Below are positions 285-24,350 of a DNA stretch of 36,012 bases, piece after piece (the first letter of the stretch is position 1; the number at the start of each line of letters is the position of its first letter). The position numbers were made by a program, and so were the translations under genes. This DNA comes from a virus. Location: IMG/VR virus record IMGVR_UViG_3300025889_020517, positions 1 to 36,012 of that record; one strand, written 5' to 3'. The notes beneath the pieces are model-generated. The model did no database searches. It had not been told where the DNA came from and worked only from the letters and a program-made list of their open reading frames with translations.

Positions 285-888
285 AGATATTATTACAATA
301 GAGTTGCTTAATAGTTTAGGCACTCTACACTCACTTCGTGACAGAGACGATATGTCTCGTTACCCAGATGTAGAATGGGCTGAATACACCGCAGAAAAAA
401 TTGTAAAAGCTTTTGAAGGCAAATATGTACCATTCGTCAGTGAGGTAGAAGAATTTAACGATTTAATGAACAAACCAAATAACTATGAGCCAACAATACC
501 AGCCGAAAGTGAATGGGATTTTGTATACAAATTCGTTTTGGAAGAACTTGAAGAGTATAAACAGGCTTGCGAAGAAGGAAACATCGTTGAAGTTCTGGAC
601 GCATTGTGTGACATTGCTTACGTATCCATTGGGAACGGTGCTATGCTTCATGGCCTTAAGGATAAAATTTGGCCCGCTTACATGGAAGTACAGGCGTCGA
701 ATCTTTCAAAGGCTTGCGCTACACAAGAAGAGGCACAGAATACTGTTGAAATACGCTCCAAGGAACAAGGCGAACCTTGTCACTATGAACAGGTTGGTAA
801 CAAGTATGTTGTATATCGTAGCAGGGATCGAAAAGTAATGAAAAACATTAACTATTTTAGACCTAATCTAAAGCAGTTTTTTAAATGA
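271..888 (+). CDS. MazG-like nucleotide pyrophosphohydrolase
   Basis: A 205-residue product from the ATG at 271; the frame extends further upstream but only through folE, so 271 is preferred. Residues ~55-150 look like the all-alpha NTP pyrophosphatase (MazG/HisE-like) fold: an acidic helix with E91, E92 and E94, then D110 and D114 in LDALCDIAYV, the usual Mg-binding arrangement of EExxE followed by ExxD/DxxD. The C-terminal ~50 residues are basic and unassigned. Phage MazG-like enzymes hydrolyse (d)NTPs or alarmone-like nucleotides; the substrate here is not predictable. It overlaps the polymerase gene by 4 nt (ATGA), suggesting coupled translation and a nucleotide-metabolism role next to replication. 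Confidence 0.75.
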   Translation: MSQFKDIITIELLNSLGTLHSLRDRDDMSRYPDVEWAEYTAEKIVKAFEGKYVPFVSEVEEFNDLMNKPNNYEPTIPAESEWDFVYKFVLEELEEYKQACEEGNIVEVLDALCDIAYVSIGNGAMLHGLKDKIWPAYMEVQASNLSKACATQEEAQNTVEIRSKEQGEPCHYEQVGNKYVVYRSRDRKVMKNINYFRPNLKQFFK

Positions 889-2732
889 TCTACAAAACGT
901 GTTACGTAGAGTCTATTGAGGGGAAAAATAATTATCGAGTCCATCTTTGGGCTGATAATGGTTATAAAACCCTAAACTGGTCCTACCCAGCCTTTGAAGA
1001 AACAGATAAAGGTGATTTTATAGGACTACGAGGAGAGACTCTACGTAAAGTAACAGGTTGGGATAAAGAAAATCCCAAACTACACTTTCACGACATGAAA
1101 CCATACCAACGATTCTTAATTGACTTGTATGGTAACAACGATGAGCCATCTAAAACTCATCGTGAAATATTTTTTGATATTGAGATTGAAATGGGAGGAG
1201 CACTTACAGAAGATTATATCCGTAGCGCTCCTAAACCCTGCACCTCAATTGCTTGGTGGGATAAACAAGCGGATGAATGGGCTATTTTGATTTTAGATAT
1301 TAAAAACCAGCTAAAACATACTAAAGCTAAAAACCGTGAAATCATTCCTTGTCGCACCGAAGAAGAACTACTTCGTAGATGGTTAGACAAGTTAGATGAA
1401 ATTCAACCCGATATTTTAGTAGGTTACAATAGTGACTATTTCGATATTCCATATTTGTTTTATCGTATTTCAAATGTGTTAGGCAAAAGTGAAGCATATC
1501 GTTTATCTAAAATTGGTAAAATTAAAGATGAATCTAGTTGGAATCAAGATAATTGGCTTCGAATTGCTGGTGTTGAATCTTTAGACTATATGAAACTCCA
1601 TAAGAAGTTTAGTTTTAAAGATGAACCTTCATTTAAATTAGATGCTTTAGGAGAAAAGTATTGTAACCTAAATAAAGTTGAATACGATGGTTCTTTAGAT
1701 AGATTATTCGAAGAAGACATTCAAAAGTTTATCCAATACAACTTTCGAGACGTTGAAATTTTAAAAGCATTAGACGAAAAATTCCAATACTTGTCTTTAA
1801 CTAAAAACCTAGCCCATAAAGGCAAAATCAACTATAGTGACGTCTACAAAAACAGTATGATTCACGATGGTGCTATCTCAGCTTATCTATTAGAAAAAAA
1901 TATTATCCCACCAGCTCGCGATAGAAATCCTATCACTAAAAAGAACTACGCAGGTGGCTATCTATTCTGTCCTACAGCAGGTATCTTTAAATACATGTTT
2001 GATGAAGATTTGACCTCACTATACCCTTCAATCATTATGTCTTTAAACATTGGTAAAGAGACACTAGTAGGTCGTATTGTAATGCCTGATGAAAAAGTAG
2101 TTGTTGAAGGTAAAGAGATATTTAATTGTCGTTACGCATTAAACGATTTGAAAAAAATGGAACCAGATAGGTTACTATTGATTCAAAACTCAAAACGTAA
2201 AACAGCTAACATTAAAGTAAAAGATGTAATTGCTCTTATCGAAACAGACAATATGTCTATTTCAGCAAATGGAGTCTTATACAGAACTGATTTTGACTCA
2301 GTACTAAAAACTATTCTTTCTAAATGGTTTAAAGAACGAGTTATTTACAAAGACGAAATGAAAAAAGCCTATAAAGCCGGTAATAAAGCTTTAGGCGAAC
2401 AAATGCACTTAAAGCAACATACAATGAAGATTTTGCTAAACAGCTTATATGGTGCTACAGCTCTAGGTAGCTTTAGATATGGTAATGTAATTTTGAGTGA
2501 AAGTATTACCTTAACAGGCCAACGTATCATCCAAGAATCAGCATTATTTGCTAATACTGATATGAATAAAGTAATGAAAGATGATGATGAAGCTACTAAA
2601 ATGAGAAATCGAATTGATGTTTGGTTTAAAGGAATACTTAAAAGACCTTATAAAGAAGAAGAAAGAATGAATGTTACAGGTTATGATGATGGTAAGGGGG
2701 TTACAATCCCTATGAGTCAATCCTTAAGTTAA
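885..2732 (+). CDS. 43: DNA polymerase family B (gp43-like), N-terminal part: exonuclease plus palm motifs A and B
   Basis: This 615-residue ORF carries the 3'-5' exonuclease motifs: Exo I FFDIEIE (D98, E100), Exo II YNSDYFD (N182, D187) and Exo III YNFRD (D289). It also has polymerase motif A DLTSLYPSII (D375) and motif B KILLNSLYG (K515-G523). It ends with a clean TAA after about 90 further residues and lacks motif C (DTDS), which lies in the ORF at 3573. Together the two ORFs give 924 residues against 898 for T4 gp43, so little seems lost. This is therefore a split polymerase whose halves must associate in trans. No intein motif or homing endonuclease is seen at the break. It is the replicative polymerase, partnered with the clamp and loader further along. 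Confidence 0.93.
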   Translation: MIYKTCYVESIEGKNNYRVHLWADNGYKTLNWSYPAFEETDKGDFIGLRGETLRKVTGWDKENPKLHFHDMKPYQRFLIDLYGNNDEPSKTHREIFFDIEIEMGGALTEDYIRSAPKPCTSIAWWDKQADEWAILILDIKNQLKHTKAKNREIIPCRTEEELLRRWLDKLDEIQPDILVGYNSDYFDIPYLFYRISNVLGKSEAYRLSKIGKIKDESSWNQDNWLRIAGVESLDYMKLHKKFSFKDEPSFKLDALGEKYCNLNKVEYDGSLDRLFEEDIQKFIQYNFRDVEILKALDEKFQYLSLTKNLAHKGKINYSDVYKNSMIHDGAISAYLLEKNIIPPARDRNPITKKNYAGGYLFCPTAGIFKYMFDEDLTSLYPSIIMSLNIGKETLVGRIVMPDEKVVVEGKEIFNCRYALNDLKKMEPDRLLLIQNSKRKTANIKVKDVIALIETDNMSISANGVLYRTDFDSVLKTILSKWFKERVIYKDEMKKAYKAGNKALGEQMHLKQHTMKILLNSLYGATALGSFRYGNVILSESITLTGQRIIQESALFANTDMNKVMKDDDEATKMRNRIDVWFKGILKRPYKEEERMNVTGYDDGKGVTIPMSQSLS

Positions 2733-2742
2733 AGTTTAAATA

Positions 2743-3012
2743 ATGGAAGAACAAATTAGAATAACAAAACAATCAATTCGTAGAGGAGTAACTGTTAGTG
2801 ATAGAACTAAAAATCTTACTAAAGACGAAGTAATCGCTATGAGTGAAAAATGGACTGAAAAGGAAATTACTTTCTTTAAAAAGATGCTTAAACAAGGAGG
2901 GCGTTTTAGTATCCAAGGCCAAAAATTTCACATCACAGTTCCTGAGCTTATTTACAATAATAAGGGAGATGTAGAAGCAGTATTACAAGAACATGAAGAA
3001 CAAAATCCTTGA
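2743..3012 (+). CDS. Hypothetical 89-aa protein inside the polymerase split
   Basis: A small charged protein (KEKWTEKEITFFKK-type helices, then a short QGGRFSIQGQKFHI strand region) with no family I recognise. It begins 10 nt after the polymerase N-terminal ORF and overlaps the Smr-like gene by 20 nt. It is not an extension of the polymerase: nothing resembles the palm/thumb, and its lysine/glutamate content differs. The location suggests it arrived with, or is the remnant of, whatever interrupted gene 43. The ORF is well formed and within the unbroken chain of overlapping genes, so it is probably real. Confidence 0.6.
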   Translation: MEEQIRITKQSIRRGVTVSDRTKNLTKDEVIAMSEKWTEKEITFFKKMLKQGGRFSIQGQKFHITVPELIYNNKGDVEAVLQEHEEQNP

Positions 3013-3208
3013 TTTACATGGAGTAAAACATGCTGATGTAGAAGATAGACTAATTGGGTTTTTCTTCTTAAATGGGTATACCCAATGCACTATTATTACA
3101 GGTAACTCTCAACAAATGAAAAATATTGTTCTAGAATTTCTTGACAAACACGATTATAATTACTATATTCCAAGCCACAATTTAGGTGAAATTCAGGTAT
3201 GGGACTAA
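2993..3208 (+). CDS. Smr-domain-like small protein
   Basis: A 71-residue protein that is essentially one minimal Smr-like domain: LDLHG near the N-terminus (residues 6-10), a helix with conserved H/V spacing, then TIITGNS in the middle and a helix with VLEFLDKH. Smr domains are nicking endonuclease or RNA-cleaving modules found in MutS2 and stand-alone proteins. The central motif here is ITGNS rather than the usual TGKG/TGxG, so catalytic ability is uncertain. It sits inside the split DNA polymerase, where mobile nucleases are common, but Smr is not a known homing endonuclease family. It overlaps both neighbours (20 nt and 10 nt). Confidence 0.65.
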   Translation: MKNKILDLHGVKHADVEDRLIGFFFLNGYTQCTIITGNSQQMKNIVLEFLDKHDYNYYIPSHNLGEIQVWD

Positions 3209-3576
3209 AAAAACCAGATAACGTAGCTGATAACCCAGGACTCTTACCTTACGCTAGTAACGTAAGTGCTCCTGCTATTCGTCCTGATAACATAGATGAT
3301 TGGAAACTACGAGGTGTTAATAAAGTAAATAAACAGATTGAAACCAAATTCCTAGAATTAAAAGAAGAATACTTAAAACTAGTTGAAGAATTTCAGTGGA
3401 ATGAATTAGTATATAAAGCTAAATTTAGTTATGAACCTGTAATAGGTGAAACTTATTACCTTTACGTTGGGAATGACGGAAATCCTTTCTTATCTTTAAT
3501 AGCACCAAATGAATGGGACAAAGAACATATTGGTTCTTTTAAATTAAATAGTGAACAAAAATGGATTAAGATATGA
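3199..3576 (+). CDS. DUF2452 family protein
   Basis: A 125-residue protein with the features I associate with DUF2452: an N-terminal KKPDNV segment, then LPYASNVSAPAI, a charged coiled-coil-like helix ETKFLELKEEYLKLVEEF, and a C-terminal beta region with FLSLIAPNEW and GSFKLNSEQKW. The family is common in Bacteroidota chromosomes and phages; its function is unknown. Finding it here supports a Bacteroidota host. It is the third gene in the break between the two polymerase ORFs and overlaps the second polymerase ORF by 4 nt (ATGA), so the inserted genes and polymerase C-terminus are translated as one unit. Confidence 0.8.
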   Translation: MGLKKPDNVADNPGLLPYASNVSAPAIRPDNIDDWKLRGVNKVNKQIETKFLELKEEYLKLVEEFQWNELVYKAKFSYEPVIGETYYLYVGNDGNPFLSLIAPNEWDKEHIGSFKLNSEQKWIKI

Positions 3577-4502
3577 TACAATTAGAAACTACACCTTGGT
3601 TCATCGCTAATAAAGAAGACGAAAACTACTGCGTCTATGTTGATACAGACTCTAACTATTATAATGCTGAACCTTTGCTTAGACGTCTCTATCCTAATTT
3701 TGACAGCATGTCTGAAGAAGAAAAAGACACCTTTCTTGAAGGACTTGCTCTTCAATATCAAAGTTTAATCACTAAGTCTTACGATAAACTAGCTTTAGAA
3801 GCATTTAATATCAAAGAACACAGATTTGATATGAAAACCGAGTGTATGATTCGTGCTGGTTATTTTAGAGCTACCCGCCGTTATGCTCAGTGGATTACTA
3901 AAAAAGAAGGTGTACCTGTAGATGATTTAGATATTAAAGGTCTAGAGTTTATGAAAGCTAACTTCCCTAAAATATTTGGAGATTTCTTTAAAGATGTTCT
4001 ACAACGAGTTATTAAAGGGGCTCCCCAAAAAGAAGTTGATGAATTATTAAAGGAATTTAGAACCAAAGTATTATCTCCTGATATGGACATTACAATTTTA
4101 GGTAATCCTACTCGTGTAAATACTTTAGATAAGTATATTGCTGCTAAACCTAAAGCCGGAGAAATGTTCTCAATTGTAGCTCAAGGTGCTCCTGCACCCG
4201 TAAAAGCAGCTATTAAATATAATGATTTACTTGCATTTTGGAAATTAGACAGACAACACTCTAAAATTGTTCAAGGTGATAAAGTAAAATGGATTTATCT
4301 AAAAGATAATCCATACAAAATTGAAGCATTAGCATTTTTAGATTTTGACATACCAGAAAAAATTCGTACATTATTAGCTGAATATGCTGATAAAAATAAA
4401 TCATTTGAAACAATTTTAGAAAGTAAATTACAAGGATTTTATAGTGACTTAGGATGGGATTTAAATTTAAATCCTTACAGAAATCTATTTTTTAACTTTT
4501 AA
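3573..4502 (+). CDS. 43: DNA polymerase family B (gp43-like), C-terminal part: palm motif C and thumb
   Basis: A 309-residue ORF that opens about 20 residues before polymerase motif C, YVDTDSNYY (D24, D26), followed by the RATRRYAQW segment (R102-Y104) equivalent to the KKRY DNA-contact motif of family B enzymes, then the thumb to the C-terminal clamp-binding region. An in-frame stop lies at 3567-3569, immediately before the start codon at 3573, so it cannot be read as a continuation of an upstream frame. Exonuclease and motifs A/B are in the ORF at 885. It must pair with that fragment to form an active site, since the metal-binding aspartates (D375 there, D24/D26 here) are on separate chains. 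Confidence 0.92.
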   Translation: MIQLETTPWFIANKEDENYCVYVDTDSNYYNAEPLLRRLYPNFDSMSEEEKDTFLEGLALQYQSLITKSYDKLALEAFNIKEHRFDMKTECMIRAGYFRATRRYAQWITKKEGVPVDDLDIKGLEFMKANFPKIFGDFFKDVLQRVIKGAPQKEVDELLKEFRTKVLSPDMDITILGNPTRVNTLDKYIAAKPKAGEMFSIVAQGAPAPVKAAIKYNDLLAFWKLDRQHSKIVQGDKVKWIYLKDNPYKIEALAFLDFDIPEKIRTLLAEYADKNKSFETILESKLQGFYSDLGWDLNLNPYRNLFFNF

Positions 4503-4504
4503 AT

Positions 4505-6136
4505 ATGGCTATAGTATACGGTATATTTTTTGGAGACCATAATTACTCAACTACAGTAATAGTAGATGGGAAAGTTGTATTTGCAGTTGAAGATGAAAAA
4601 ATTACTAGAACTAAAAGCTGTTATGCTCTTCATGAAGGAGGTTTAGCTTCATTACAAGCAGCCGAACAACATACAGGAATAAAAATCTCAGATGCCGATT
4701 TAATTGCTATAACTGATTTAGCTATCATTAGAGATGTAGGTTATAGAGGTCTTACATCTGAACAAAATGTAAAAATTTATTTAGATATCCTTAAAAAAAC
4801 TAATAAACCTATAAAAATTTATTCCCATCATCAATCTCATGCTGCCTCAGCTTATTACCTTTCAGGATTTAAAGATAAAACAGCAATAGTAACTTCTGAT
4901 GGAGGATGTTTTGAAGAAGAGTATGGTAGTATTTGGTTAGCTGAAAATGGACAAATGGATAAATTTAAAGGTTTAGGTAAAACTTCTAATGCTAGTTTAG
5001 CAAATTTATTTAACAATGCTTGTCCTTTTTTTGGTTTTAAAGGTTTAAAAGATGAAGGTAAAATCATGGGAATGGCTCCCGATGGATTTTACAATGATAT
5101 GATTTATCATACTTTTGATATTCTTTGTAAATATACTGGGGAGTTAACCTTTTCCCACATCCCCGAAAATACAACTTTAATGCATTATGCTTATGAAAAA
5201 CTGTATAAAGAAGGGTGGTTTAAAGATCAAAAACATAAAGAAGTAGTAGCATATAACCTACAAAAAGCCTTATCAGATAATTTAGTAGCGTATCTTAAAG
5301 ATGTAAAATTGTATTTTCCAAATTATAATAAACTTTGTTTAGCAGGGGGAATATTTGCTAATGTAAAATCTAATCAACATATAAATGAAGAATGTGGTTT
5401 TGATGAAATTTTTATAGCTCCTCCTATGGGTGATGAAGGTTTATCTTTAGGGGCTGCTATTTTAGGATCCCTAGAATTAGGGGATTGGGAACATAAACCT
5501 ACTAAAGATGTATTTTTTGGTCCAGAATATTCAGACGAAGAATGCTTTAATGAATCTAAAAACTGGGGGGTAAAATTAGTTAAAGATTTTATTGACTATG
5601 ATTTTTTATCTGATCTTATAATTAATAGAAAAGTAATAGCTATTCATAATGGGAAATTAGAATTTGGTCCTCGAGCTTTAGGTAATAGAAGTGTAGTTAT
5701 GGAAACTACAAACGAAAATAATCATTTATATTTAAATAAACGATTTGGTAGAAGTGAAACTATGCCTTTTGCACCTATTGTTTTACAAGACCAAGCAAAA
5801 AAAGTATTTAATATCACTAATTCAGAATTTGCAGCTGAGTTTATGACGCTTTGTTACGATACTAAAGATGAATGGATAGAGAAAATCCCAGCCGTAATCC
5901 AAAAATCAGATAAAACAGCAAGACCCCAAATAGTAAGTCAAGATAAACATCCTATATTTTATAATATTCTTAAGTCTTATTATAATAAAACTAATATACC
6001 TGTATTACTAAATACTTCATTTAATGGGCATGGCGAACCTATAGTTAATACTCCTGCTGAAGCTTTTGCTCACTTAGAAAAAGGTTCTATAGATTATTTA
6101 TTAATAGGAAATAAAATCTATAAAAAAGATGAATAA
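4505..6136 (+). CDS. Carbamoyltransferase, NodU/TobZ/CmcH family (copy 1)
   Basis: 543 residues, the usual length of the family. The N-terminal Kae1-like ASKHA domain starts GIFFGDHNYS and contains HHQSH (H108-H112), the metal-binding motif that supports carbamoyl-adenylate chemistry; LAGGIFANVKSN and APPMGDEG follow at ~300-340. The C-terminal YrdC-like domain has EFGPRALGNRS and NTSFNGHGEPIV. The enzyme uses carbamoyl phosphate and ATP to place a carbamoyl group on a hydroxyl of a sugar or natural product. It begins 2 nt after the polymerase stop and overlaps the next ORF by 8 nt. A second, divergent copy follows at 6815. The acceptor is unknown; a sugar made by the downstream island is a reasonable guess. 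Confidence 0.92.
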   Translation: MAIVYGIFFGDHNYSTTVIVDGKVVFAVEDEKITRTKSCYALHEGGLASLQAAEQHTGIKISDADLIAITDLAIIRDVGYRGLTSEQNVKIYLDILKKTNKPIKIYSHHQSHAASAYYLSGFKDKTAIVTSDGGCFEEEYGSIWLAENGQMDKFKGLGKTSNASLANLFNNACPFFGFKGLKDEGKIMGMAPDGFYNDMIYHTFDILCKYTGELTFSHIPENTTLMHYAYEKLYKEGWFKDQKHKEVVAYNLQKALSDNLVAYLKDVKLYFPNYNKLCLAGGIFANVKSNQHINEECGFDEIFIAPPMGDEGLSLGAAILGSLELGDWEHKPTKDVFFGPEYSDEECFNESKNWGVKLVKDFIDYDFLSDLIINRKVIAIHNGKLEFGPRALGNRSVVMETTNENNHLYLNKRFGRSETMPFAPIVLQDQAKKVFNITNSEFAAEFMTLCYDTKDEWIEKIPAVIQKSDKTARPQIVSQDKHPIFYNILKSYYNKTNIPVLLNTSFNGHGEPIVNTPAEAFAHLEKGSIDYLLIGNKIYKKDE

Positions 6137-6818
6137 AGAAGTAGAAGTCACTTTAACATATTCAACTAAAGGGTTTGGTCCTAGAGTTGATGTATTCTGT
6201 AATGTTGAAGAACAATTTGTTTTAAGATTATATAATTTTTTAGATGGAAAGAAACGATTAATCTATAGTGGATTAATTAATTCTAATGCTTATTATCAAC
6301 CTTGGAGACGTTTTTATACTAATTGGGTAGTTGAAGTATGGGCTTGGGATAATGGATTAAGTAAGATTTATGAAAATTATTTTAATATAAACGGAAAACG
6401 TGTAGTTTTTTTTGTTAATGGAGATAGTGTTAACGAAGTTAAAGAATACGTAGACGAAATTTTAGAGTTTTGTGACCGAAAAAAATGTTTTGGAACTATA
6501 GTTACTCGCTATGATCTTCTTCTTAAAGAAAAATATGCCCACTATAGAGTTAATTATACCTCTCATCTCCCAGATGATGAATTATCTAATTACTATGTTT
6601 CTTATACTGTATCTCGAGAAACTATAAACCAAGATTTTAATATGCTAGATAATAGACTAGCCCAAGAAAAATATGTTTGGGACGATTATATCCCAGTTAA
6701 CTATAAAAAGTATAATTTGTCTAATAGAGAGATAGCTAGAGCTATTTTAAATGGAGTAACTTGGAGAGATGATAAATTATTCCCTAATTATTCACCTTAT
6801 AATATATTAAATTTATGA
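6129..6818 (+). CDS. Unassigned 229-aa protein; start resembles leading domain of autotransporter heptosyltransferases
   Basis: It lies between the two carbamoyltransferases, overlapping the first by 8 nt and the second by 4 nt. Residues ~1-115 (GPRVDVF, FYTNWVVEVW, YFNINGKRVVFF and a following amphipathic helix) recall the beta-rich leading domain plus first Rossmann strand of TibC/BAHT-type autotransporter heptosyltransferases, where a FTNWRI block precedes KGKRV. The rest of that enzyme, the nucleotide-sugar-binding half, is not present; the C-terminal ~110 residues are Tyr/Asn rich and unrecognised. It could be a truncated glycosyltransferase, an acceptor-binding partner of the carbamoyltransferases, or unrelated. 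The similarity is from memory and weak. Confidence 0.45.
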   Translation: MNKEVEVTLTYSTKGFGPRVDVFCNVEEQFVLRLYNFLDGKKRLIYSGLINSNAYYQPWRRFYTNWVVEVWAWDNGLSKIYENYFNINGKRVVFFVNGDSVNEVKEYVDEILEFCDRKKCFGTIVTRYDLLLKEKYAHYRVNYTSHLPDDELSNYYVSYTVSRETINQDFNMLDNRLAQEKYVWDDYIPVNYKKYNLSNREIARAILNGVTWRDDKLFPNYSPYNILNL

Positions 6819-8434
6819 GAGTATTAGGTATAACAGGTGGAATTCATAGTTGTGGTTTAGCATTAGTTGAAAATGGTAAGCCTATATTTGCGTTTGAAGA
6901 AGAACGTTTTTGTAGAATCAAAACTTATAAAGATTTTGAAGCCGATTTTCATCGATACCCTTTAAATAGTTGGAATTGGGCAAAATCAAAATACCCTGAA
7001 TATCTTACCGATATAGATTATATCACAGGCTTTTTTCCTCCTGGCACTAAATTTGTAGAACCAATGCTTGAAGGAATAACTTTAAGAAACACAATTAAAG
7101 CTCCTTATATAGAAGTAAGTCACCATGAATCTCATTGTAACTTAGCATATTACTTAAGTGGATTTCAAGAAGATACTTTAGTTATTTCTATGGATGCTAG
7201 TGGTAATAATCATAGTGCTAAATATTATTTAGGTCAAAATGGTAATTTAATTTATATTGATGGTTTAGATCTTAGTAGGAAATCTTTAGGTCATTATTAT
7301 TCTATGTTAACTGAATTTTTAGGGTTTAAACGCTTAAAAGATGAAGGTAAAGTAGTAGGAATGGCTTCACATGGACATTATGACAGTGTTTTGTATGATA
7401 TATTTAACCAATGCATTACAGTTGATGGATACTTAACTGATTTAGATAATAGTAGTGAAGTAGTTTTAGGTGGGATTTATAAAGATTTTTATAATTTGTT
7501 TTACACTAAAACCGGAAGCAAAGCATTTTGGACTCATAAATCTAATATAGCATTTAATGGTCAGTTAGTATTTGAAGAAAAAATCCTTCAAATAATTGAT
7601 CATCTTCATAATCTTTATCCTAAAGCTAAAAAAATAGCTTTAGCCGGAGGAGTATTTGCTAACATTAAAGTAAATAAAAGAATAAATGAATTACCTTGGG
7701 TAGATGAAGTTTTTGTAGCTCCTCCTATGGGTGATGAAGGTACTCCTTTAGGTTGTGCTTTAGCTACTTATAAAAAATTTAACCCTGATTTTAAACCTTT
7801 TAAATTAAATGATGCATTTTTAGGGGTAGAATTTACAGACCAAGAAACAGAAGAAAATTACTGGGATCAAGAAAAATTTAACAGACGACCCTACACCCCA
7901 GAACAAATCGCTTGGGATTTGAAAGAAGGTAAAATAATAGGATGGTTTCAAGGTCGTTATGAACATGGTCCTAGAGCACTATGTAATAGAAGTATTATTG
8001 CTGATCCAAGTGTACCGGGTACTTATAAAAAAGTAAATGATAGATTACAACGTAATGATTTTATGCCCTTTGCTCCGGTTGTAATTGATAAGTATGCTAA
8101 TGAAGTATTTAACGTTACTAAATCCGCTTACACAGCAGAATTTATGACTATGCTTTATAATACTAGGGAAGAATGGCAAGAAAAAATCCCAGCAGTAGTT
8201 CATCCTATTGATAAAACAGCTCGTATTCAAATTGTAACTGAAAATAGCAATCCTAAGTTTTATAAATTAATAAATAAATTTAATGATATAACTAGTATTC
8301 CCGTACTATTAAATACTTCATTTAATATACATGAAGAACCTATAATTTGTACTCCCAAAGAAGGGTTTGTACATTTAGAGAACAATATAGTAGATGTATT
8401 GGTTATAGGAAATTTTATTTTTACTAAAAAATGA
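6815..8434 (+). CDS. Carbamoyltransferase, NodU/TobZ/CmcH family (copy 2)
   Basis: 539 residues with the same two-domain layout as the gene at 4505: GITGGIHSCG at the start, HHESH (H103-H107), LAGGVFANIKVN and APPMGDEG in the N-terminal domain, and EHGPRALCNRS plus NTSFNIHEEPII in the C-terminal YrdC-like domain. It differs from copy 1 across most of its length and in details (GLGN to ALCN, NGHGEP to NIHEEP), so it is an old duplication or separate acquisition rather than a recent copy. Two paralogues side by side suggest two carbamoylation sites or a hetero-oligomer. It overlaps the clamp gene by 4 nt. Confidence 0.9.
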   Translation: MRVLGITGGIHSCGLALVENGKPIFAFEEERFCRIKTYKDFEADFHRYPLNSWNWAKSKYPEYLTDIDYITGFFPPGTKFVEPMLEGITLRNTIKAPYIEVSHHESHCNLAYYLSGFQEDTLVISMDASGNNHSAKYYLGQNGNLIYIDGLDLSRKSLGHYYSMLTEFLGFKRLKDEGKVVGMASHGHYDSVLYDIFNQCITVDGYLTDLDNSSEVVLGGIYKDFYNLFYTKTGSKAFWTHKSNIAFNGQLVFEEKILQIIDHLHNLYPKAKKIALAGGVFANIKVNKRINELPWVDEVFVAPPMGDEGTPLGCALATYKKFNPDFKPFKLNDAFLGVEFTDQETEENYWDQEKFNRRPYTPEQIAWDLKEGKIIGWFQGRYEHGPRALCNRSIIADPSVPGTYKKVNDRLQRNDFMPFAPVVIDKYANEVFNVTKSAYTAEFMTMLYNTREEWQEKIPAVVHPIDKTARIQIVTENSNPKFYKLINKFNDITSIPVLLNTSFNIHEEPIICTPKEGFVHLENNIVDVLVIGNFIFTKK

Positions 8435-9171
8435 TAAATAAATTAGAGTTACAATCCGTTATCAACAAATATTTCCTGAATGGAATGGTTGAATCAGTAA
8501 AATGGAATACTGAAAGTAACGCGCTAACTATTGACTTCCAATCACCTAACAAGGACATGATTGGATGTGTTAAACACACGAATTTCCCGCTAGAAAACAG
8601 CGAAATCGCGGTGTATGATACATCTAAACTAAATAAGTTGTTAAGTATTGCTAATGGTGATGTAGTATTAGAACTAGAAAAAACCCAAGCAGTTTATACT
8701 AAACTTATTATTTCAGATTCTAATTACACCCTTAACTTCTCCCTTACAGATCTACTACTTATCCAAGATTTAGGTGATGTAACTGATCCTCAAAACTATG
8801 AAATATTTGGTTTTTTAGGTGAAGAAGAAATTAGTGCTATTATTAAAGCACACAACGCACTTGAAAGCGACAATATGATTGTTCGTATTGATCGAGATTT
8901 AGATGGTGAGGATTGTTTAATGCTTACATTTGGTGACAATTCAAACCACACAAACAAAATCGATTACCAATTCCCAGACGCTTCTTTAACAAATGTGCCT
9001 TACGGAACTAAAATCCCATTTAACTCAGCTATGGTTAAAACCATCCTGAACAACAACAAGGATGCTACATCAGCTACATTTAATGTTAATACCCGAGGAT
9101 TGATGAAGTTGCTGTTTCAAGGTGAGAATTGGACAAGTGTTTATTATATTATTAGGAAAGCAGATATTTAA
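8431..9171 (+). CDS. 45: DNA polymerase sliding clamp (gp45-like)
   Basis: 246 residues, close to T4 gp45 (228). The repeated beta-alpha-beta pattern, the YDTSKLNKLLSI segment near residue 65-75, the central IIKAHNAL helix and the C-terminal LLFQGENWTSVYYII strand resemble trimeric T4-type clamps. Such clamps encircle DNA, tether polymerase and, in T4, couple replication to late transcription. The call is strengthened by the clamp loader genes (gp44-like at 12227, gp62-like at 13760). In T4 the order 45-44-62 is contiguous; here chaperone genes and small ORFs are interposed. An 88-nt gap with one arm of an inverted repeat follows it. Confidence 0.82.
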   Translation: MINKLELQSVINKYFLNGMVESVKWNTESNALTIDFQSPNKDMIGCVKHTNFPLENSEIAVYDTSKLNKLLSIANGDVVLELEKTQAVYTKLIISDSNYTLNFSLTDLLLIQDLGDVTDPQNYEIFGFLGEEEISAIIKAHNALESDNMIVRIDRDLDGEDCLMLTFGDNSNHTNKIDYQFPDASLTNVPYGTKIPFNSAMVKTILNNNKDATSATFNVNTRGLMKLLFQGENWTSVYYIIRKADI

Positions 9172-9186
9172 TATATGTATAAATGA

Positions 9187-9204
9187 ATACGAAAGACCCT
9201 AGGG
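9187..9204. repeat. Left arm of inverted repeat flanking the Hsp20 gene
   Basis: The sequence ATACGAAAGACCCTAGGG, which includes the perfect palindrome CCCTAGGG, recurs as its reverse complement at 9689-9707 with a 2-nt insertion. The arms lie just upstream and just downstream of the Hsp20 gene, with about 480 bp between them. I found no other CCTAGGG in the window. A short CACAAATTA also lies inward of each arm (9242-9250 and, inverted, in 9679-9687), though at different spacings. The arms could be mobile-element ends, recombination sites or operators. Confidence 0.7.
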
Positions 9205-9259
9205 CACGTAGTTTATTGTTTAACCGCTGATCTTTAGACAGCACAAATTAAAAAGTGAT

Positions 9260-9673
9260 ATGAGTACACTATTCCCTTATGATCTCTTATTTAGAGATTT
9301 TTTTAAGTCTGAACTAGACTTCCAACCAGCTATACAAGCTAAAATTCAACACCCAGTAGACATTTATGAAAACAAAGACGGACTCCACTTCGAAGTGGCT
9401 TGTACTGGTCTTTTTAAAGAAGATATTGAATTAAATATCGAAGGAGATATTCTCCGTATTTCATATAATAAAAATGATGATGATAAATGTTGCGATATAA
9501 ATGATTGCACTTATCTTCACAAAGGAATTGCTAAGCGTTCCTTTAATTTAGGTTATAAAGTAGCTTCTAAATTTAATCTATTAAAAGCAGAAGCAATGAT
9601 GGAAAATGGATTACTTACAATCCATATTCCTTATGCTGAAGAAGCAAAGCCAAAAACCCTTAAAATTAAATAA
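9260..9673 (+). CDS. Small heat shock protein (Hsp20/alpha-crystallin)
   Basis: A 137-residue protein. It starts like many sHsps with FPYDLLFRDFF, then has an alpha-crystallin domain from ~31 to ~130: HPVDIYENKDGLHFEVA, LFKEDIELNIEGDILRI (strands 2-5), KRSFNLGYKV and ENGLLTIHIPY, and ends with a KTLKIK tail in place of the usual I-x-I/V motif. sHsps hold unfolding proteins for ATP-dependent chaperones; GroES and GroEL are encoded 350 bp downstream. It has its own flanking spacers of 88 and 63 nt and is bracketed by an inverted repeat, unlike its tightly packed neighbours. Such genes occur in many T4-like cyanophages as well. Confidence 0.9.
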   Translation: MSTLFPYDLLFRDFFKSELDFQPAIQAKIQHPVDIYENKDGLHFEVACTGLFKEDIELNIEGDILRISYNKNDDDKCCDINDCTYLHKGIAKRSFNLGYKVASKFNLLKAEAMMENGLLTIHIPYAEEAKPKTLKIK

Positions 9674-9681
9674 GTTATAAT

Positions 9682-9712
9682 TTGTGATCCTAGGGTCTCT
9701 TTCGTATATTTA
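9682..9712 (+). promoter_or_regulatory. Predicted Bacteroidota-type promoter before the chaperonin genes
   Basis: TTG at 9682-9684, a 20-nt spacer and TATATTTA at 9705-9712 fit the Bacteroidota sigma-A pattern (TTG, 19-21 nt, TAnnTTTG) except for the last base. The inverted-repeat arm at 9689-9707 lies within the spacer and overlaps the -7 element, so a protein binding that repeat could control this promoter. The gene at 9737, preceded by AAAGGA, and then groES and groEL follow directly. Confidence 0.5.
9689..9707. repeat. Right arm of inverted repeat flanking the Hsp20 gene
   Basis: CCTAGGGTCTCTTTCGTAT is the reverse complement of the arm at 9187-9204 apart from an extra TC pair in the middle. 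It falls between the -33-like TTG and the -7-like element of the predicted promoter, which makes an operator role plausible. Confidence 0.7.
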
Positions 9713-9736
9713 AGTTATTATAAAATAAAGGAAACT

Positions 9737-10017
9737 ATGGCAAAACCCTCAAAACAATATACTAGGTATATTAAAGATCCTCTTCTAGATCCGTATGTAA
9801 TACAACTAGAAGATCACTGTTTTTCAGTTCATAAAGTAACTATAGCTGAAGAAAGTGGAAAAGAATATAGCCAAAATATTGGTTACTATAATAGTTTTGA
9901 AGCTGCTCTTCAAGCTATTGCCAGAACAGAAGCAAAATCTTACAGTTATGAGAGCATTAAAGATTTTATAGACTCTTATGACAAAATCACTAATAAATTA
10001 AAAAATATAGTAAACAT

Positions 10018-10021
<4 letters not shown>
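9737..10021 (+). CDS. Conserved-looking phage protein, 94 aa, unknown function
   Basis: This small soluble protein opens with a YIKDPLLDPYVIQLEDHCF segment and has a GKEYSQ turn, a helix around FEAALQAIARTEA and a C-terminal helix. The layout (short beta region, then YNSFEAALQAI) recalls small phage proteins of unknown function; I cannot name a family. It is the first gene after a predicted promoter, has a recognisable AAAGGA ribosome-binding site 6-11 nt before the ATG, and overlaps groES by 4 nt (ATGA), so it is likely co-transcribed with the chaperonins. Confidence 0.6.
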
Positions 10022-11982
<1,961 letters not shown>

Positions 11983-11983
<1 letters not shown>

Positions 11984-12240
11984 TGAAAACTGAAAAACAA
12001 GAATTTCTAGAAGTAATTGCTAATCGAGTCCCGCCTGGTGACAGGTGGACATTAGTAGGTGAAAAACAAATCTATAATTCAATTACTGAAACATTAGAAG
12101 CATGGTTTAGTAGAACTGGTGAAAAAGCAGAATTTCGACTTGCTCCTTTACAAAGTAAGTTGTATGTTATCCGCACCGAAGAAATAGAAATTAAACCTGA
12201 ACCACCTAAAAAATATAATATTTACGGTGATTACGAATAA
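11983..12240 (+). CDS. Hypothetical 85-aa protein between groEL and clamp loader
   Basis: Starts at an ATG overlapping the groEL stop (TAATG) and overlaps the clamp loader gene by 14 nt. The product is soluble, with a PPGDRWTLVGE loop near residue 17, a helical middle (YNSITETLEAWFSR) and a proline-rich acidic C-terminus (EIKPEPPKKYNIYGDYE). I do not recognise the family. The tight overlaps and absence of any competing frame support it as a real gene. Confidence 0.6.
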
Positions 12241-14580: not shown

Positions 14581-15324
14581 ATGGAATATAAAATTCCTAT
14601 AGTAAGTTTTATTTTACCTACTAAAAATAGAGTAGGTAAACTTAAAAATTCACTTGATTCCTTATTTAATACTTGTTATGATAAGTATAATTTTGAGGTT
14701 TTATGTGGGGTTGATAATGATGATTTTGATACTATTAATTTCCTTTCTCAATATTCTACAACCCACCCTAACGTAAAATATTATGAATTTAGTGAAAAAG
14801 GATATGAAAATATCTATAAAATCCAAAATATTTTAGCCACTAAAGCATCAGGCAATTTTCTTGCTCTTTACACAGATGATGCTGTTTATACTTCTTTAAA
14901 TTGGGATTTAGTTATTAAAGAATATTTAAATAAATTTATAGTTCTAAATCCTATGGTTTCTCATATGGAACATTATGTTAGAGGTACTTATGAACTTTTT
15001 CCTGGATATATGTTTTGCATTTTACCTATAGTTCCTAAAAAATTAGTAGAATTAACTGGAAGAATGGCTAATAATACAGCATCAGATACTTGGATAAGTG
15101 AGCTTGTATTTCATGCTAATATTCCTTATATTCAAGAAGATAATATTATTTTATCCCATTTTAGATTTGATGAAACTCAAAACGAGGATCATATAGATGA
15201 TTTGTATTACGAAGTAGAAAGTAGGAAACAAATTGTTAAAGATAATTTTTACTCAGATTATCAAACTCAAGAAAGAATAAAGGATATAGAAAAAATAAAA
15301 CAATACTTAAGTAGTTTTGCCTAA
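14581..15324 (+). CDS. Glycosyltransferase family 2-like (GT-A)
   Basis: 247 residues from the ATG at 14581; the frame is open 21 nt further up, inside the previous gene. The start IPIVSFILPTKNRVGKLKNS is the GT2 signature strand and nucleotide-binding loop; VLCGVDNDD lies at ~40-48 and ALYTDDAVY at 95-103 supplies the DxD-like acidic cluster for the metal-nucleotide sugar. The C-terminal part has SDTWISELVFH, then helices. It probably transfers a sugar from a nucleotide donor in the cytoplasm. It opens the glycan island and overlaps the nuclease gene by 8 nt. Confidence 0.85.
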   Translation: MEYKIPIVSFILPTKNRVGKLKNSLDSLFNTCYDKYNFEVLCGVDNDDFDTINFLSQYSTTHPNVKYYEFSEKGYENIYKIQNILATKASGNFLALYTDDAVYTSLNWDLVIKEYLNKFIVLNPMVSHMEHYVRGTYELFPGYMFCILPIVPKKLVELTGRMANNTASDTWISELVFHANIPYIQEDNIILSHFRFDETQNEDHIDDLYYEVESRKQIVKDNFYSDYQTQERIKDIEKIKQYLSSFA

Positions 15325-16267
15325 GAAAAAAATACCTTCCATTATTAAGGAAGTAAAATCAACCACGCCCCCAGACGTTGACTATAGCTATCAAAAGCAA
15401 ATCTCATTTAGTCAATTTTCCATGTACGAGCAGTGCCCACATAAATGGGCGCTGCAGTACAGGGATGGGCATCGTAAAACCGAAGTATCAATTCACATGA
15501 CTTTTGGTACTGCTATTCACGAATCATTACAATTGTATTTAACTACAATGTATGAGGAAAGCAAAGCAGCAGCTGATAGGATTGATTTAGTAGAGCATTT
15601 TGAAGATACTCTAAGAAAACAATACAGAATTGACTATGAAAAAAATAATAAAGTACATTTTTCAGATTCTACTCAACTAAGAGAATTTTTTGAAGATGGA
15701 GTTGCTATTATCAATTGGTTCAAAAAGAAAAATGGAGTGTATTTTAGTAAACGTAACTGGTGGATAGTTGGTTGTGAAGTACCCATCCAATTAACGCCTA
15801 ATCCTGCGTTTAAAAACGTTATTTACCGCGGATTTTTAGACGTTGTATTGTATAATGAAGCAACAAAAACGATAAAAATCATTGATATCAAAACCTCTAC
15901 TCGTGGTTGGAAAGACAAAGAAAAAAGTGATGAAGTTAAAAATATGCAATTGATTTTATATAAAAAATTCTTTGCTCAACAATATAACTTTCCAATAGAT
16001 AATATTGATATTGAATATTTTATTGTAAAACGTAAAATCTATGAAGATGGAGATTACCCTGAAAAACGTATTCAAACCCATGTACCAACCTCAGGTAAAG
16101 TAAAAGTAAATAAAGCAACAAAAGCATTAAATGAATTTATTGAACGTGCTTTCCAGAAGGATGGTTCGTATAATCAAGGACCACAATTAAAAAATCCTAG
16201 CAAATGGAATTGTCAATTCTGTCCTTTTAATAATGATATTAATTTATGTGACAAGGGGTTATCTTAA
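15317..16267 (+). CDS. PD-(D/E)XK nuclease, RecB/Cas4-like, with probable 4Fe-4S cluster
   Basis: 316 residues from a TTG at 15317. FSQFSMYEQCPHKWALQY at 31-48, FGTAIHESLQ (H68), GFLDVVLYN (D175), IKIIDIKTS (D190, K192) and MQLILYKKFF (Q211, Y215) are the ordered motifs of the PDDEXK_1 family. C40, C299, C302 and C311 (CQFC at the C-terminus) have the one-plus-three spacing that binds a 4Fe-4S cluster in AddB and Cas4. It should cut or resect DNA, perhaps in recombination-dependent replication. It lies between glycosyltransferase genes, so it is functionally out of place. The TTG start gives an 8-nt overlap and a lysine-rich N-terminus. Confidence 0.88.
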   Translation: MPKKKIPSIIKEVKSTTPPDVDYSYQKQISFSQFSMYEQCPHKWALQYRDGHRKTEVSIHMTFGTAIHESLQLYLTTMYEESKAAADRIDLVEHFEDTLRKQYRIDYEKNNKVHFSDSTQLREFFEDGVAIINWFKKKNGVYFSKRNWWIVGCEVPIQLTPNPAFKNVIYRGFLDVVLYNEATKTIKIIDIKTSTRGWKDKEKSDEVKNMQLILYKKFFAQQYNFPIDNIDIEYFIVKRKIYEDGDYPEKRIQTHVPTSGKVKVNKATKALNEFIERAFQKDGSYNQGPQLKNPSKWNCQFCPFNNDINLCDKGLS

Positions 16268-16313
16268 AGACTCCTAATATATGTATATCAAACAATTAAT
16301 TAAAAATAATGTT

Positions 16314-16499
16314 ATGAATAAAAAAGAAATGACTTTAACTTCTGTAAAGATACAAAGTGAGTTATTTGATGAATTTAAAGTTTCGTGTGTTCGCCACAAA
16401 TTTTCATTCCAAAAACTTGCTGATCGTTCAATTCATTTGTATCTTACAGACGAAAATTTTAGAAAACAAATACATAGTCATAATAATTTAGATATTTAA
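16314..16499 (+). CDS. Ribbon-helix-helix-like small regulator
   Basis: 61 residues from the ATG at 16314, chosen because MNKKEMTLTSVKIQSELFDE puts the beta-strand at the N-terminus; an ATG 33 nt upstream (16281) would add 11 residues. One strand (TLTSVKI) followed by two helices (SELFDEFKVSCVRHK and FSFQKLADRSIHLYL) fits the RHH/CopG-Arc fold, which dimerises and binds DNA through the strand. A 46-nt spacer precedes it, one of few in this region. Targets are unknown; it may regulate the glycan genes that follow. Confidence 0.6.
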   Translation: MNKKEMTLTSVKIQSELFDEFKVSCVRHKFSFQKLADRSIHLYLTDENFRKQIHSHNNLDI

Positions 16500-16502
16500 T
16501 TT

Positions 16503-17933
16503 ATGAAAGAAGGTTACGTACCAAAGGATCAAAGGAAAAAAATTCTTTTGATGTGCGATGATATTAGACTACCATCAGGAATTGGAACGGTAGGACGAGA
16601 GCTAATTTTAGGAACAGCTCATCGCTATAATTGGGTAAACTTAGGAGGAGCAATTGATCACCCTGAATTTGGAAAAAGATTTGACCTTAGTGAAGACACC
16701 AACAAAAACACAGGAATTACAGATGCTTCAGTTGTTGTTATTCCTTATAATGGGTATGGTGATCCTACTACTTTAAGAAAACTTTTAGAAGAAGAACAAC
16801 CTGATGCTATTTTCTTAATTACTGATCCTAGATATTGGGTTTGGTTATTTCAAATTGAAAACGAAATCCGTAAACAAATTCCTATTGCTTACCTTAATAT
16901 TTGGGATGATCTTCCTGCTCCTTATTATAATAAAGCATTTTATGAATCATGTGATGCCTTATTTGGTATTTCTAAACAAACAGTTAACATTAATAAACTT
17001 GTTTTAGATGATAAAGCTAAAGGAAAAATTATTAAGTATGTACCTCATGGTTTAAATCCAAAAATTCTTTACCCTCTTAAAGATAAAGAAAATAATAAAG
17101 AATTTCAAGAATTTAAAAAACATTTACTAAAAGGTAAAGAATATGATTTTGTAGTATTTTTTAATTCACGAAATATTAGACGTAAACAAGTACCTGATAC
17201 TATTTTAGCATTTAAAACTTTTATAGATAAACTACCTAAAGAAAAAGCTAAAAAATGTCTTTTATTACTTCATACTGAAGCGGTTTTAGATCATGGAACT
17301 GATCTTCCTGCTATAATTAAAACTATATGCCCTAAAGATAATATAGTAATCACTAATACCAGATTTAGTGTTGAGCAAATAAATTATCTTCACAACATAG
17401 CAGATGTTCAAATTCTTCTTACTTCAAATGAAGGTTGGGGATTAAGTTTAACTGAAGCCTTACTTGTAGGGAACCCTATTATTGCTAATGTAACAGGTGG
17501 TATGCAAGATCAAATGCGTTTTGAAGATGAAAATGGTAATTGGATTGATTTTAACGCTGATTTCCCTTCTAATCATAGAGGTACTTACAAAAAACATGGT
17601 GAATGGGCATTCCCAGTATACCCAACAAGTCGTTCACTACAAGGTTCTCCTCCTACACCTTATATTTTTGATGATAGATGTAATTGGGAAGATGCTGCTG
17701 ACCAAATTATGGAGGTTTATAATCTTTCTTCTAAAGAACGTAAAGATAAAGGTAATAAAGGTAGAAATTGGGCTCTTTCTAATGAAGCAGGTTTTACTCA
17801 AGAACATCAAGCTCAACGTATTATCGAAGGAATGGATGAATTATTTTCAACTTGGAAACCTAGAGAAAAATTTGAATTTATTAATGCTACTGATTACAAT
17901 CTTCCTGTTTTAAATCATAAATTAATTTATTAA
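16503..17933 (+). CDS. Glycosyltransferase GT4-like (GT-B)
   Basis: 476 residues with a two-Rossmann GT-B layout. N-terminal half: KILLMCDDIRLPSGIGTVGRE at ~13-33 is the acceptor domain start with its glycine loop. C-terminal half: VVFFNSRNIRRKQ, then SNEGWGLSLTEALLVGNPII with the GT4 E-x7-E pattern and NVTGG. The last ~100 residues include a PVYPTSRSLQGSPPTPYIF loop and helices. Retaining GT4 enzymes use UDP-, GDP- or ADP-sugars. It begins 3 nt after the RHH gene stop and ends 1 nt before the next glycosyltransferase gene. Confidence 0.9.
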   Translation: MKEGYVPKDQRKKILLMCDDIRLPSGIGTVGRELILGTAHRYNWVNLGGAIDHPEFGKRFDLSEDTNKNTGITDASVVVIPYNGYGDPTTLRKLLEEEQPDAIFLITDPRYWVWLFQIENEIRKQIPIAYLNIWDDLPAPYYNKAFYESCDALFGISKQTVNINKLVLDDKAKGKIIKYVPHGLNPKILYPLKDKENNKEFQEFKKHLLKGKEYDFVVFFNSRNIRRKQVPDTILAFKTFIDKLPKEKAKKCLLLLHTEAVLDHGTDLPAIIKTICPKDNIVITNTRFSVEQINYLHNIADVQILLTSNEGWGLSLTEALLVGNPIIANVTGGMQDQMRFEDENGNWIDFNADFPSNHRGTYKKHGEWAFPVYPTSRSLQGSPPTPYIFDDRCNWEDAADQIMEVYNLSSKERKDKGNKGRNWALSNEAGFTQEHQAQRIIEGMDELFSTWKPREKFEFINATDYNLPVLNHKLIY

Positions 17934-17934
17934 T

Positions 17935-19230
17935 ATGAGCAAAAATACGTTTTATATAAGCAGCCCTTTTGACACTTATAGTGGTTATGGTGCTCGTTCT
18001 AGAGATTTAATTAAAGCTATTATAGAATTAGATAAATATGATGTAAAATTATTATCTCAACGCTGGGGAAATACACCCTTTGGATTCTGTACAAATAATC
18101 CTGAGTGGGGATTTCTTTTAGATTTAATAGTCCCTAACAATAATCTTACTGAGCAACCAGATATTTGGGCTCAAGTTACTGTACCTAATGAATTTCAACC
18201 TGTAGGAAAGTATAATATTGGTTTTACTGCTGGTATGGAAACTACTTTAGTACATGGTAGTTGGGTAGAAGGAATAAATAGAATGGATATTACTTTTGCT
18301 TCATCTGAGCATTCTAAACAATCTTTTCTTAACTCAGTTTATGAAAAAAGAAATAATCAAAACCAAAAAGTAGGAGAAGTAAAAGTAGAAAAACCTATTG
18401 AAGTATTATTTGAAGGTGCTAACTTAGACGTTTATAAACCTACTACTGAACCTTGTTTGATTGATTTTAATATTCCTGAATCATTTGCTTACTTATTTGT
18501 AGGTCATTGGATGCAAGGAGAGATAGGTGAAGATAGAAAAAATGTAGGTTTATTAATTAAAGCATTTTTAGAAACTTTTAAAAATAAAAAAAACAAACCT
18601 GCTTTAATTCTTAAAACTTCTCAAGTTGGGGCTTCTTATATGGATAGAGATGAAATTCTTAAAAAAATTTCATATATTAAGGAAACAGTAAATTCTGAAA
18701 ATTTACCTAATATTTATCTTCTTCATGGTGAATTTACTGATGAAGAAATGAATTCACTTTATAACCATTCTAAAATTAAAGCAATGGTTAGTTTAACTAA
18801 AGGTGAAGGCTTTGGTCGTCCATTACTTGAATTTAGTTTATCACAAAAACCTATCATTACTACTTCATGGTCCGGCCATACAGATTTTTTACATAAAGAA
18901 TTTAGTATTTTAATAGGAGGAACCCTTACAAATGTTCATAAATCAGCAGTAGTTAAAGATATGATTTTACCTGAATCTCAATGGTTTTCCCCTGATCATG
19001 GACAAATTGGATATTTTTTAAATGATATGTTCGAAAATTATAAAAAATATATCAGTGGGGGTAAACGACAAGCTTACTATAGTAAAACTAACTTTAGTAA
19101 AGACAAAATGAAAGAAAAACTAGATCTTCTTTTAACCCAAAATATCCCAGACTTACCTAAAAAAGTAGAACTTAAATTACCCCAAATTAAAAAAATTGAA
19201 CTTCCTAAAAAACCTATACTAAATGGATAA
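17935..19230 (+). CDS. Glycosyltransferase GT4-like (GT-B), second
   Basis: 431 residues. N-terminus FYISSPFDTYSGYGARSRD has the Gly-rich acceptor loop; middle has VLFEGANLDVYKP and FVGHWMQGE; C-terminal donor site is KGEGFGRPLLEFSLSQKPII followed by TTSWSGHTDFL, the GT4 E-x7-E motif. The end is Lys/Pro/Leu rich (LPKKVELKLPQIKKIELPKK), probably a flexible tail. It differs from the enzyme at 16503 in sequence so is not a tandem duplicate. It overlaps the zinc-ribbon gene by 8 nt. Confidence 0.88.
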   Translation: MSKNTFYISSPFDTYSGYGARSRDLIKAIIELDKYDVKLLSQRWGNTPFGFCTNNPEWGFLLDLIVPNNNLTEQPDIWAQVTVPNEFQPVGKYNIGFTAGMETTLVHGSWVEGINRMDITFASSEHSKQSFLNSVYEKRNNQNQKVGEVKVEKPIEVLFEGANLDVYKPTTEPCLIDFNIPESFAYLFVGHWMQGEIGEDRKNVGLLIKAFLETFKNKKNKPALILKTSQVGASYMDRDEILKKISYIKETVNSENLPNIYLLHGEFTDEEMNSLYNHSKIKAMVSLTKGEGFGRPLLEFSLSQKPIITTSWSGHTDFLHKEFSILIGGTLTNVHKSAVVKDMILPESQWFSPDHGQIGYFLNDMFENYKKYISGGKRQAYYSKTNFSKDKMKEKLDLLLTQNIPDLPKKVELKLPQIKKIELPKKPILNG

Positions 19231-19669
19231 TTTAATTACTTGTAATCGTTGCAGTTCAGATGCGTGTTATGTTCAAGAAGTAAGTGCTGATATTAAGCTA
19301 TATTATTGTTATGGTTGTGGTTTCCAAGCTAATACTGCTATGAACTCAGGCTCTAAATTTTTAAATGAACAACTAGAAATCCTTCCAGAGCTATATAAAG
19401 AATTAATGGGTGAAGATGAAAATGGATTAATTTGGATGCCTTCTACGGTTAATATTCCTGATAAAGGTATGGTGTTTGCTGATGGAGGTACTTCTTTAAA
19501 TTGGTATTGGTCTGCTGTTAAAGCAATCCCTATGCCTGAAGAAGAAAAAGCTAAATTTGCTGAAAAAGGTAAAGATTATAAATGGAAAATGGACATGACT
19601 ACTTTACAACATTTCCCAGAACGTGATTATATAGAAGCTCTTGATTATATTGGAGTGTTTGAAAAATAA
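19223..19669 (+). CDS. Zinc-ribbon phage protein, unknown function
   Basis: 148 residues. CNRC (8-11) and CYGC (29-32) make a CxxC-x17-CxxC zinc ribbon at the N-terminus. The rest has GLIWMPSTVNIPDKGMVF and an EDGN-free, lysine-rich helix ending with ALDYIGVFEK. This combination of ribbon plus short globular domain is familiar from T4-like phages, where it lacks an assigned role. It lies between glycosyltransferases but no sugar-related motif is seen. Confidence 0.7.
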   Translation: MDNLITCNRCSSDACYVQEVSADIKLYYCYGCGFQANTAMNSGSKFLNEQLEILPELYKELMGEDENGLIWMPSTVNIPDKGMVFADGGTSLNWYWSAVKAIPMPEEEKAKFAEKGKDYKWKMDMTTLQHFPERDYIEALDYIGVFEK

Positions 19670-19675
19670 ACCAAA

Positions 19676-20299: not shown

Positions 20300-20520
20300 A
20301 AGATAAATACCCTAATATGAAATCTACAGTTAATACTCAAGGTGAAGTAGTAACTCAAATAATTCATTTTGTAGGAGGAATTAAAAGAACATACCATGGT
20401 ATTTTAAGTTCTTCTATTAAACAAGGACAATTTACTAAATTTAAGTGTACTGATGGTAGCATGGTTATGATTAACGATGTTAATGTTTTATGTATTGAAG
20501 TTTTTACTGAAAAGTTTTAA
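20296..20520 (+). CDS. Hypothetical 74-aa beta-rich protein
   Basis: Starts in a 4-nt ATGA overlap with the glycosyltransferase. It appears to be a small beta barrel (VVTQIIHFVGGIKRTYHGIL, then FTKFKCTDGSMVMIN, VNVLCIEVF), about the size of an SH3- or LSm-like fold. I cannot place it in a family. It is 3 nt before the next gene. Confidence 0.6.
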   Translation: MKDKYPNMKSTVNTQGEVVTQIIHFVGGIKRTYHGILSSSIKQGQFTKFKCTDGSMVMINDVNVLCIEVFTEKF

Positions 20521-20523
20521 ATT

Positions 20524-23696: not shown

Positions 23697-23720
23697 AAGT
23701 TTTTTTATTATATTAATGTT

Positions 23721-24347: not shown

Positions 24348-24350
24348 ATT

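Follow-up and report, generated by a model that had tools for sequence, protein, structure and literature searches.

A phage DNA polymerase gene split between motifs B and C, in a linker that is broken in several lineages

The split polymerase locus

The viral record IMGVR_UViG_3300025889_020517 of IMG/VR, analysed here over its full stretch of 36,012 nucleotides (nt; the window), carries two open reading frames (ORFs), at 885-2732 and 3573-4502, that resemble the two parts of a replicative family B DNA polymerase (PolB) and are separated by three other genes; all features of this locus lie on the plus strand. A preliminary description, made from the sequence alone, had given the coordinates and reading frames of both ORFs exactly. 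The first ORF codes for an N chain of 615 amino acids (aa) with the 3'-5' exonuclease domain, palm motif A, the fingers, and motif B, and matches the Pfam families DNA_pol_B_exo1 (PF03104) and DNA_pol_B (PF00136), the latter match reaching motif B. The second codes for a C chain of 309 aa with motif C, the remaining palm, and the thumb. Since the N half covers columns 74-573 (E=1e-109) and the C half columns 566-843 (E=1e-44) of the 856-column profile PHROG 262 ("DNA polymerase"), the two halves follow one another along a single gp43-type protein, and each sequence feature examined places the pair in the gp43 family.

On the N chain, exonuclease motif I (FDIEIE, residues 97-102; 1173-1190) and palm motif A (DLTSLYPS, residues 375-382; 2007-2030) keep D98, E100, E102, and D375 in all 157 split pairs of relatives described below, and motif B (KILLNSLYGA, residues 515-524; 2427-2456) is essentially invariant. 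The C chain opens with a conserved head, LETTPWFIANKEDEN (3582-3626; consensus LExTPW[WF]ICDxxDxN), followed by motif C (YVDTDS, C-chain residues 22-27; 3636-3653), which bears the catalytic D24 and D26 and is invariant save in one truncated row. Pfam, PHROG 262, and the motif alignment thus bear out the earlier assignment of motifs A and B to one chain and motif C to the other, and the alignment places the metal aspartates, D375 of motif A and D24/D26 of motif C, on separate chains. The total of 924 residues in the preliminary description stands for the two ORFs and not for the conserved enzyme, which measures about 876 aa because residues 568-615 of the N half (2586-2732) form a 48-residue tail peculiar to this contig: the N chains of most relatives end just past residue 567, and no homologue of the tail was found among the first 161 loci. 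Two relatives (L058 and L128) carry different tails at the same point of the N chain.

The three intervening genes are those named in the preliminary description, namely P3 (2743-3012), an 89-aa family without assigned function; P4 (2993-3208; 71 aa), which is Smr-like (Pfam Smr, E=2.9e-4, under the curated cut-off) and is kept between the halves in about 30 relatives; and P5 (3199-3576; 125 aa), a DUF2452 protein (Pfam, E=2.7e-10). P3 and P4, P4 and P5, and P5 and the C half are overlapping ORFs, the stop codon of P5 and the start of the C chain sharing an ATGA at 3573-3576. Promoter- and terminator-like sites inside this operon showed no excess over shuffled sequences, and the coding strand holds no terminator-like site.

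A large clade with the same break

IMG/VR was searched with each half, an intact relative, and P3 as queries. The count of split against intact relatives that the preliminary description had proposed gave 157 distinct split N+C pairs and 8 distinct intact genes in the same clade of uncultivated phages, a ratio that is not a frequency because the search seeds were mostly split genes. The same break recurs in well over 100 independent contigs, which rules out chance or the assembly error that the preliminary description had named as a possible source of the split; the break between motifs B and C, far from an oddity of one phage, is the rule in a large clade.

Specifically, in nearly all relatives the conserved N-chain sequence runs to residue 565-567, and most N chains stop 4-7 codons past residue 567, after a conserved helix, while the C chain starts about 20 residues ahead of YxDTDS, with an ATG codon in 142 of the 157 pairs. 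The gap between the halves ranges from -4 nt (an ATGA overlap) to 2,769 nt, with a median of 461 over the 157 pairs. Twenty-five distinct pairs have adjacent halves and no cargo between them. In 24, the halves overlap or meet within 2 nt, out of frame, so that no inserted gene is needed for the split and a recent assembly slip is excluded, and the halves of the remaining pair lie 16 nt apart.

Both halves are under purifying selection. In 157/157 pairs the catalytic residues (D, E, K, N, and Y) of ExoI-III, motif A, and motif B are invariant; in motif C, D24 is present in 156/157 (one row is truncated before it) and T25-D26-S27 in 157/157. The ratio of nonsynonymous to synonymous substitution rates (dN/dS; Nei-Gojobori, close pairs) is 0.03-0.14 for both halves, and the ratio of the corresponding proportions (pN/pS) between the window N half and its nearest relatives is 0.13-0.26, against 0.37-0.57 in most comparisons of P3 and P4.

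Position of the break and the C-chain head

The position of the break was mapped on an AlphaFold model of an intact relative, L076, which, like L071, has the same polymerase on a single chain with 57-58% identity to the N half. The model has a predicted local distance difference test score (pLDDT) of 89 and a predicted template-modelling score (pTM) of 0.78, and this single-chain protein has the fold of RB69 gp43 (TM-score of about 0.8). The break falls at residues ~571-574 of L076, within a stretch (569-591) between the helix that follows motif B (539-568) and the motif C hairpin, with a strand at 592-596. Blocks 571-590 have a pLDDT of 60-70, among the lowest of the model; the break thus lies in a poorly ordered surface loop, which the fold would tolerate being cut.

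The head of the C chain is strongly conserved among the split pairs (P8 in 156/157, W9 in 143/157, I11 in 155/157, and N18 in 156/157). Intact relatives of the clade have at this position a linker of similar length (VYEIRTTPRQRYEDC), reading TTPRQRYEDC, and more distant intact phages have no linker there; the PolB of Microcystis phage Mel-JY01, a single-chain member of the same family with 34% identity to the N half, likewise has no linker matching the head. The head specific to split genes (LExTPW[WF]ICD) probably helps the two chains to dock.

Recurrence of the split and possible re-fusion

The same linker is also broken outside the main clade. In LR756508, an uncultured phage of 484 kb, PolB is split into ORFs 9001-12054 and 15060-16925 of the analysed region (L160; LR756508.1 250363-270165), which lie 3 kb apart; the N ORF ends past the helix following motif B, and about 24 residues precede motif C in the C ORF. 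Each ORF also holds an intein-like insert, that of the N ORF within motif B and that of the C ORF within motif C (YTD|S...HN|TDS), so that this one polymerase bears three interruptions. A reading of the locus as a split intein proved wrong, since the full ORFs show a linker split plus separate intein-like inserts.

A sister lineage (L389-L462), about 40% identical to the window, comprises 12 split and 57 intact genes. Its tree requires about 10 changes between the split and intact states, 9 of them forced by well-supported branches, and split and intact versions occur at 74-90% identity to each other with differing cargo. One of its members (L389) has a 1037-aa collagen-like tail-fibre ORF between the polymerase halves. 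When the split genes of the main clade and one representative each of LR756508 and of the sister lineage were constrained to a single split clade, the constraint was rejected (p 1e-60). Judged by these trees, the same linker has been broken independently in the main clade, in the 484-kb phage, and repeatedly in the sister lineage.

The tree of the main clade places its intact genes inside the split ones with 98-100% support, and the alternative of one split from an intact ancestor receives p values of 0.115, 0.049, 0.025, and 0.025 in approximately unbiased (AU) tests across outgroups and models. This suggests that a split gene was re-fused in the main clade, apparently once; re-fusion is favoured and not decisive, because the hypothesis followed sight of the tree and long branches are present.

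Genes in the gap

Of the 157 split pairs, 124 have P3 between the halves; in the others it is elsewhere or was not found. P4, P5, or both occur in the gaps of some relatives. P5 lies directly downstream of the C half in three relatives with adjacent halves (L190, L193, and L195) and therefore moves around the polymerase locus. The remaining gap genes are diverse and code for enzymes of the 3-deoxy-D-arabino-heptulosonate 7-phosphate (DAHP) synthetase type, transaldolase, a pyridoxal phosphate (PLP)-dependent enzyme, a cupin, a phosphomannomutase-like protein, a deoxythymidine diphosphate (dTDP)-sugar isomerase, a cytidylyltransferase, methyltransferases, glycosyltransferases, and unknowns. The cargo turns over, because about 13 changes between the adjacent and the cargo-bearing state are needed on the tree.

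The presence of P3 in most gaps, and an operon whose ORFs all overlap or nearly abut, would fit a split that serves as an adaptive regulatory device, in which cargo proteins, chiefly P3, control or bridge the assembly of the chains. Yet P3 was not found in three adjacent-split contigs of 95-110 kb (G001-G003), and it occurs in intact and other lineages beside a conserved membrane-protein gene, in one setting about 7 kb from an intact polymerase, while the remaining cargo consists of unrelated metabolic and sugar genes. A role of P3 as an obligatory bridging subunit is weakened by these findings, and a regulatory device is improbable; the cargo proteins look like passengers rather than subunits. 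By eye, P3 genes at other sites (L253, L262, L268, L291, L317, and L387) are often near ribonucleotide reductase-like and QueC-like genes. The P3 family has no match in Pfam or PHROG and no hit in 50,697 phage records; its AlphaFold model (pLDDT 78) is a helix pair plus a hairpin, with nothing comparable in the PDB by Foldseek (E<=0.001) or VIA-align (Z>=2).

Endonucleases and the probable origin of the split

The preliminary description found no homing endonuclease between the halves, which is correct for the window and does not hold for the site. A by-eye impression that endonucleases were missing from every gap was likewise overturned by family searches, which located in the same linker GIY-YIG/NUMOD genes (the L050 family of the main clade and L411, L415, and L446 of the sister lineage), an HNH/DUF723 homing endonuclease (L395, sister lineage), and endonuclease VII-like genes (L021 of the main clade and L419 of the sister lineage). 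According to PMC2988022, the targets of homing endonucleases are conserved and essential, polymerase genes among them, and split genes are among the outcomes. As three kinds of homing-endonuclease-like genes sit in the linker of relatives, endonuclease invasion and then cargo turnover is the likely origin: homing endonuclease genes would have invaded the conserved coding region of the linker, splitting the polymerase gene; the endonuclease would then have been lost; and other phage genes would have accumulated or been exchanged at a spot that no longer cost polymerase function. The split in the window, which retains no endonuclease, most likely arose in the same way.

Comparison with known split polymerases

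Split gp43 is already known; the position of the break, its recurrence, and its lability are new, and a literature search found no paper describing this clade. A close precedent, gene 43 of Aeromonas phages 25 and 44RR (43A/43B), agrees with what the preliminary description said of Aeromonas phages, a break in the fingers region associated with mobile endonucleases. It is a T4 gp43-type PolB on two chains, broken between motifs A and B, with a homing endonuclease in the gap of phage 25. Alignment places SLYPS at 400 in 43A and NSLYG at 51 in 43B, with DTDS at 108 in 44RR, so that the break of the window, between B and C, differs as the preliminary description had held. The gap is 49 nt in 44RR and holds one homing endonuclease in phage 25, whereas it reaches 2.8 kb of varied cargo in the clade of the window; moreover, phage 25 has an endonuclease at the break and a group I intron in 43B, whereas the window has no endonuclease (some relatives carry one) and no intron in its gap by Rfam. 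The 43A and 43B proteins of phage 25 co-purify and have polymerase activity, as reported in PMC2988022.

Methanobacteriales (M. thermautotrophicus) likewise have a family B polymerase, the split PolB3, that occurs naturally as two chains and lacks a functional intein (PMC4104785, citing Kelman 1999); this archaeal split is ascribed to erratic intein excision, and the likeness drawn here concerns the two-chain state. The PolB of Aes123, among Aeromonas T4-like phages, and that of Nanoarchaeum equitans are likewise encoded by two genes, whereas their chains are ligated by trans-splicing and those of the window have no intein. Essential phage genes cut at a homing endonuclease site also include nrdA of Aeromonas phage Aeh1 (mobE) and T4 gene 60 (mobA); these code for different enzymes, and the available text of PMC2988022 describes neither recurrence nor re-fusion for them.

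A predicted two-chain polymerase

The two ORFs very likely specify a single functional, replicative PolB, predicted to be a non-covalent heterodimer. The N chain would supply the exonuclease, the fingers, and the motif A aspartate, and the C chain the motif C aspartates and the thumb, so that the active site would form only upon docking of the motif C hairpin next to motif A. Some points weigh against this account. The two-chain enzyme of the main clade is known from sequence, its host is uncultured, and another polymerase may lie elsewhere in the incomplete genome, of which the window is a 36 kb fragment; in addition, the causal role of endonucleases rests on a minority of loci, because most gaps, that of the window included, hold none today.

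A wider proposal, about evenly balanced between right and wrong, is that the B-C linker of phage PolB is an evolutionary hinge, repeatedly cut by homing endonucleases. At least three lineages would have been cut, one of them perhaps ten or so times; the enzyme would survive each cut as a two-chain machine, the gap would become a landing site for other genes, and the chains could be rejoined. The largest clade would have kept the two-chain state through deep divergence and gained a docking peptide on its C chain.

ALTERNATIVES: intron, intein, relic gene, frameshift

Besides the regulatory device considered above, a decaying relic, with another polymerase replicating the genome, is conceivable in a genome fragment that is incomplete and for a pair whose activity is predicted from sequence. 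The low dN/dS of both halves and the catalytic residues kept across the 157 pairs speak against decay, as does a clamp loader gene in the same window, and a relic is improbable, somewhat more so than the regulatory device.

Slightly less probable again is RNA splicing by a group I intron, which would rejoin the frames into one polypeptide and which the preliminary description had named as a refuting outcome. Phage polymerase genes are frequent intron hosts, 43B of phage 25 among them, and some relatives have GIY-YIG/NUMOD genes at the site; against this, Rfam detects no intron in the window gap, either at the gathering threshold or at E<=1, nor in 18 other loci (9 main-clade relatives, the huge phage, and 8 of the sister lineage). 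Moreover, overlapping ORFs under selection occupy the gap, the start codon and head of the C chain are conserved, and in 24 relatives the halves, overlapping or abutting, are in different frames.

A split intein that ligates the chains by protein trans-splicing, as in PolB1 of Aes123 or in Nanoarchaeum PolB, is hardly credible here, even though such inteins are known from T4-like PolB (PMC11923092) and archaea (PMC4104785). As the preliminary description had noted, neither chain of the window bears an intein signature (no Hint or intein match); in most relatives the N chains end 4-7 residues past the conserved helix, and the C chains open with a 20-aa non-intein head, whereas intein domains were detectable in LR756508. 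Lastly, programmed -1 frameshifting might link the two frames in relatives with adjacent halves, but it cannot do this in the window, because 840 nt of other genes intervene and a stop closes the C frame just before its start codon.

Neighbouring genes and host

Directly downstream of the polymerase, two NodU/Nol-like carbamoyltransferase genes (4505-6136 and 6815-8434) flank a 229-aa ORF without a PHROG match. The window further contains a phage-encoded GroEL-type chaperonin (10370-11983; PHROG 5725, E=2e-155) and a cluster of glycosyltransferases, an aminotransferase, and nucleotide-sugar epimerases (16503-28651). Pelagibacter was considered as host, because one distant intact relative (57%) lies in a contig of a metagenome-assembled genome labelled Pelagibacter, and was set aside as too weakly indicated.

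Significance

The sets of metal-binding aspartates stand on different proteins and are kept so across a large and diverse clade, which shows that a copying enzyme can have even its core divided between chains. Matched split and intact pairs at 74-90% identity are offered by the sister lineage for testing the cost of the break, the site choice of endonucleases, and rejoining, and the break point is a naturally tested site for split-polymerase tools.

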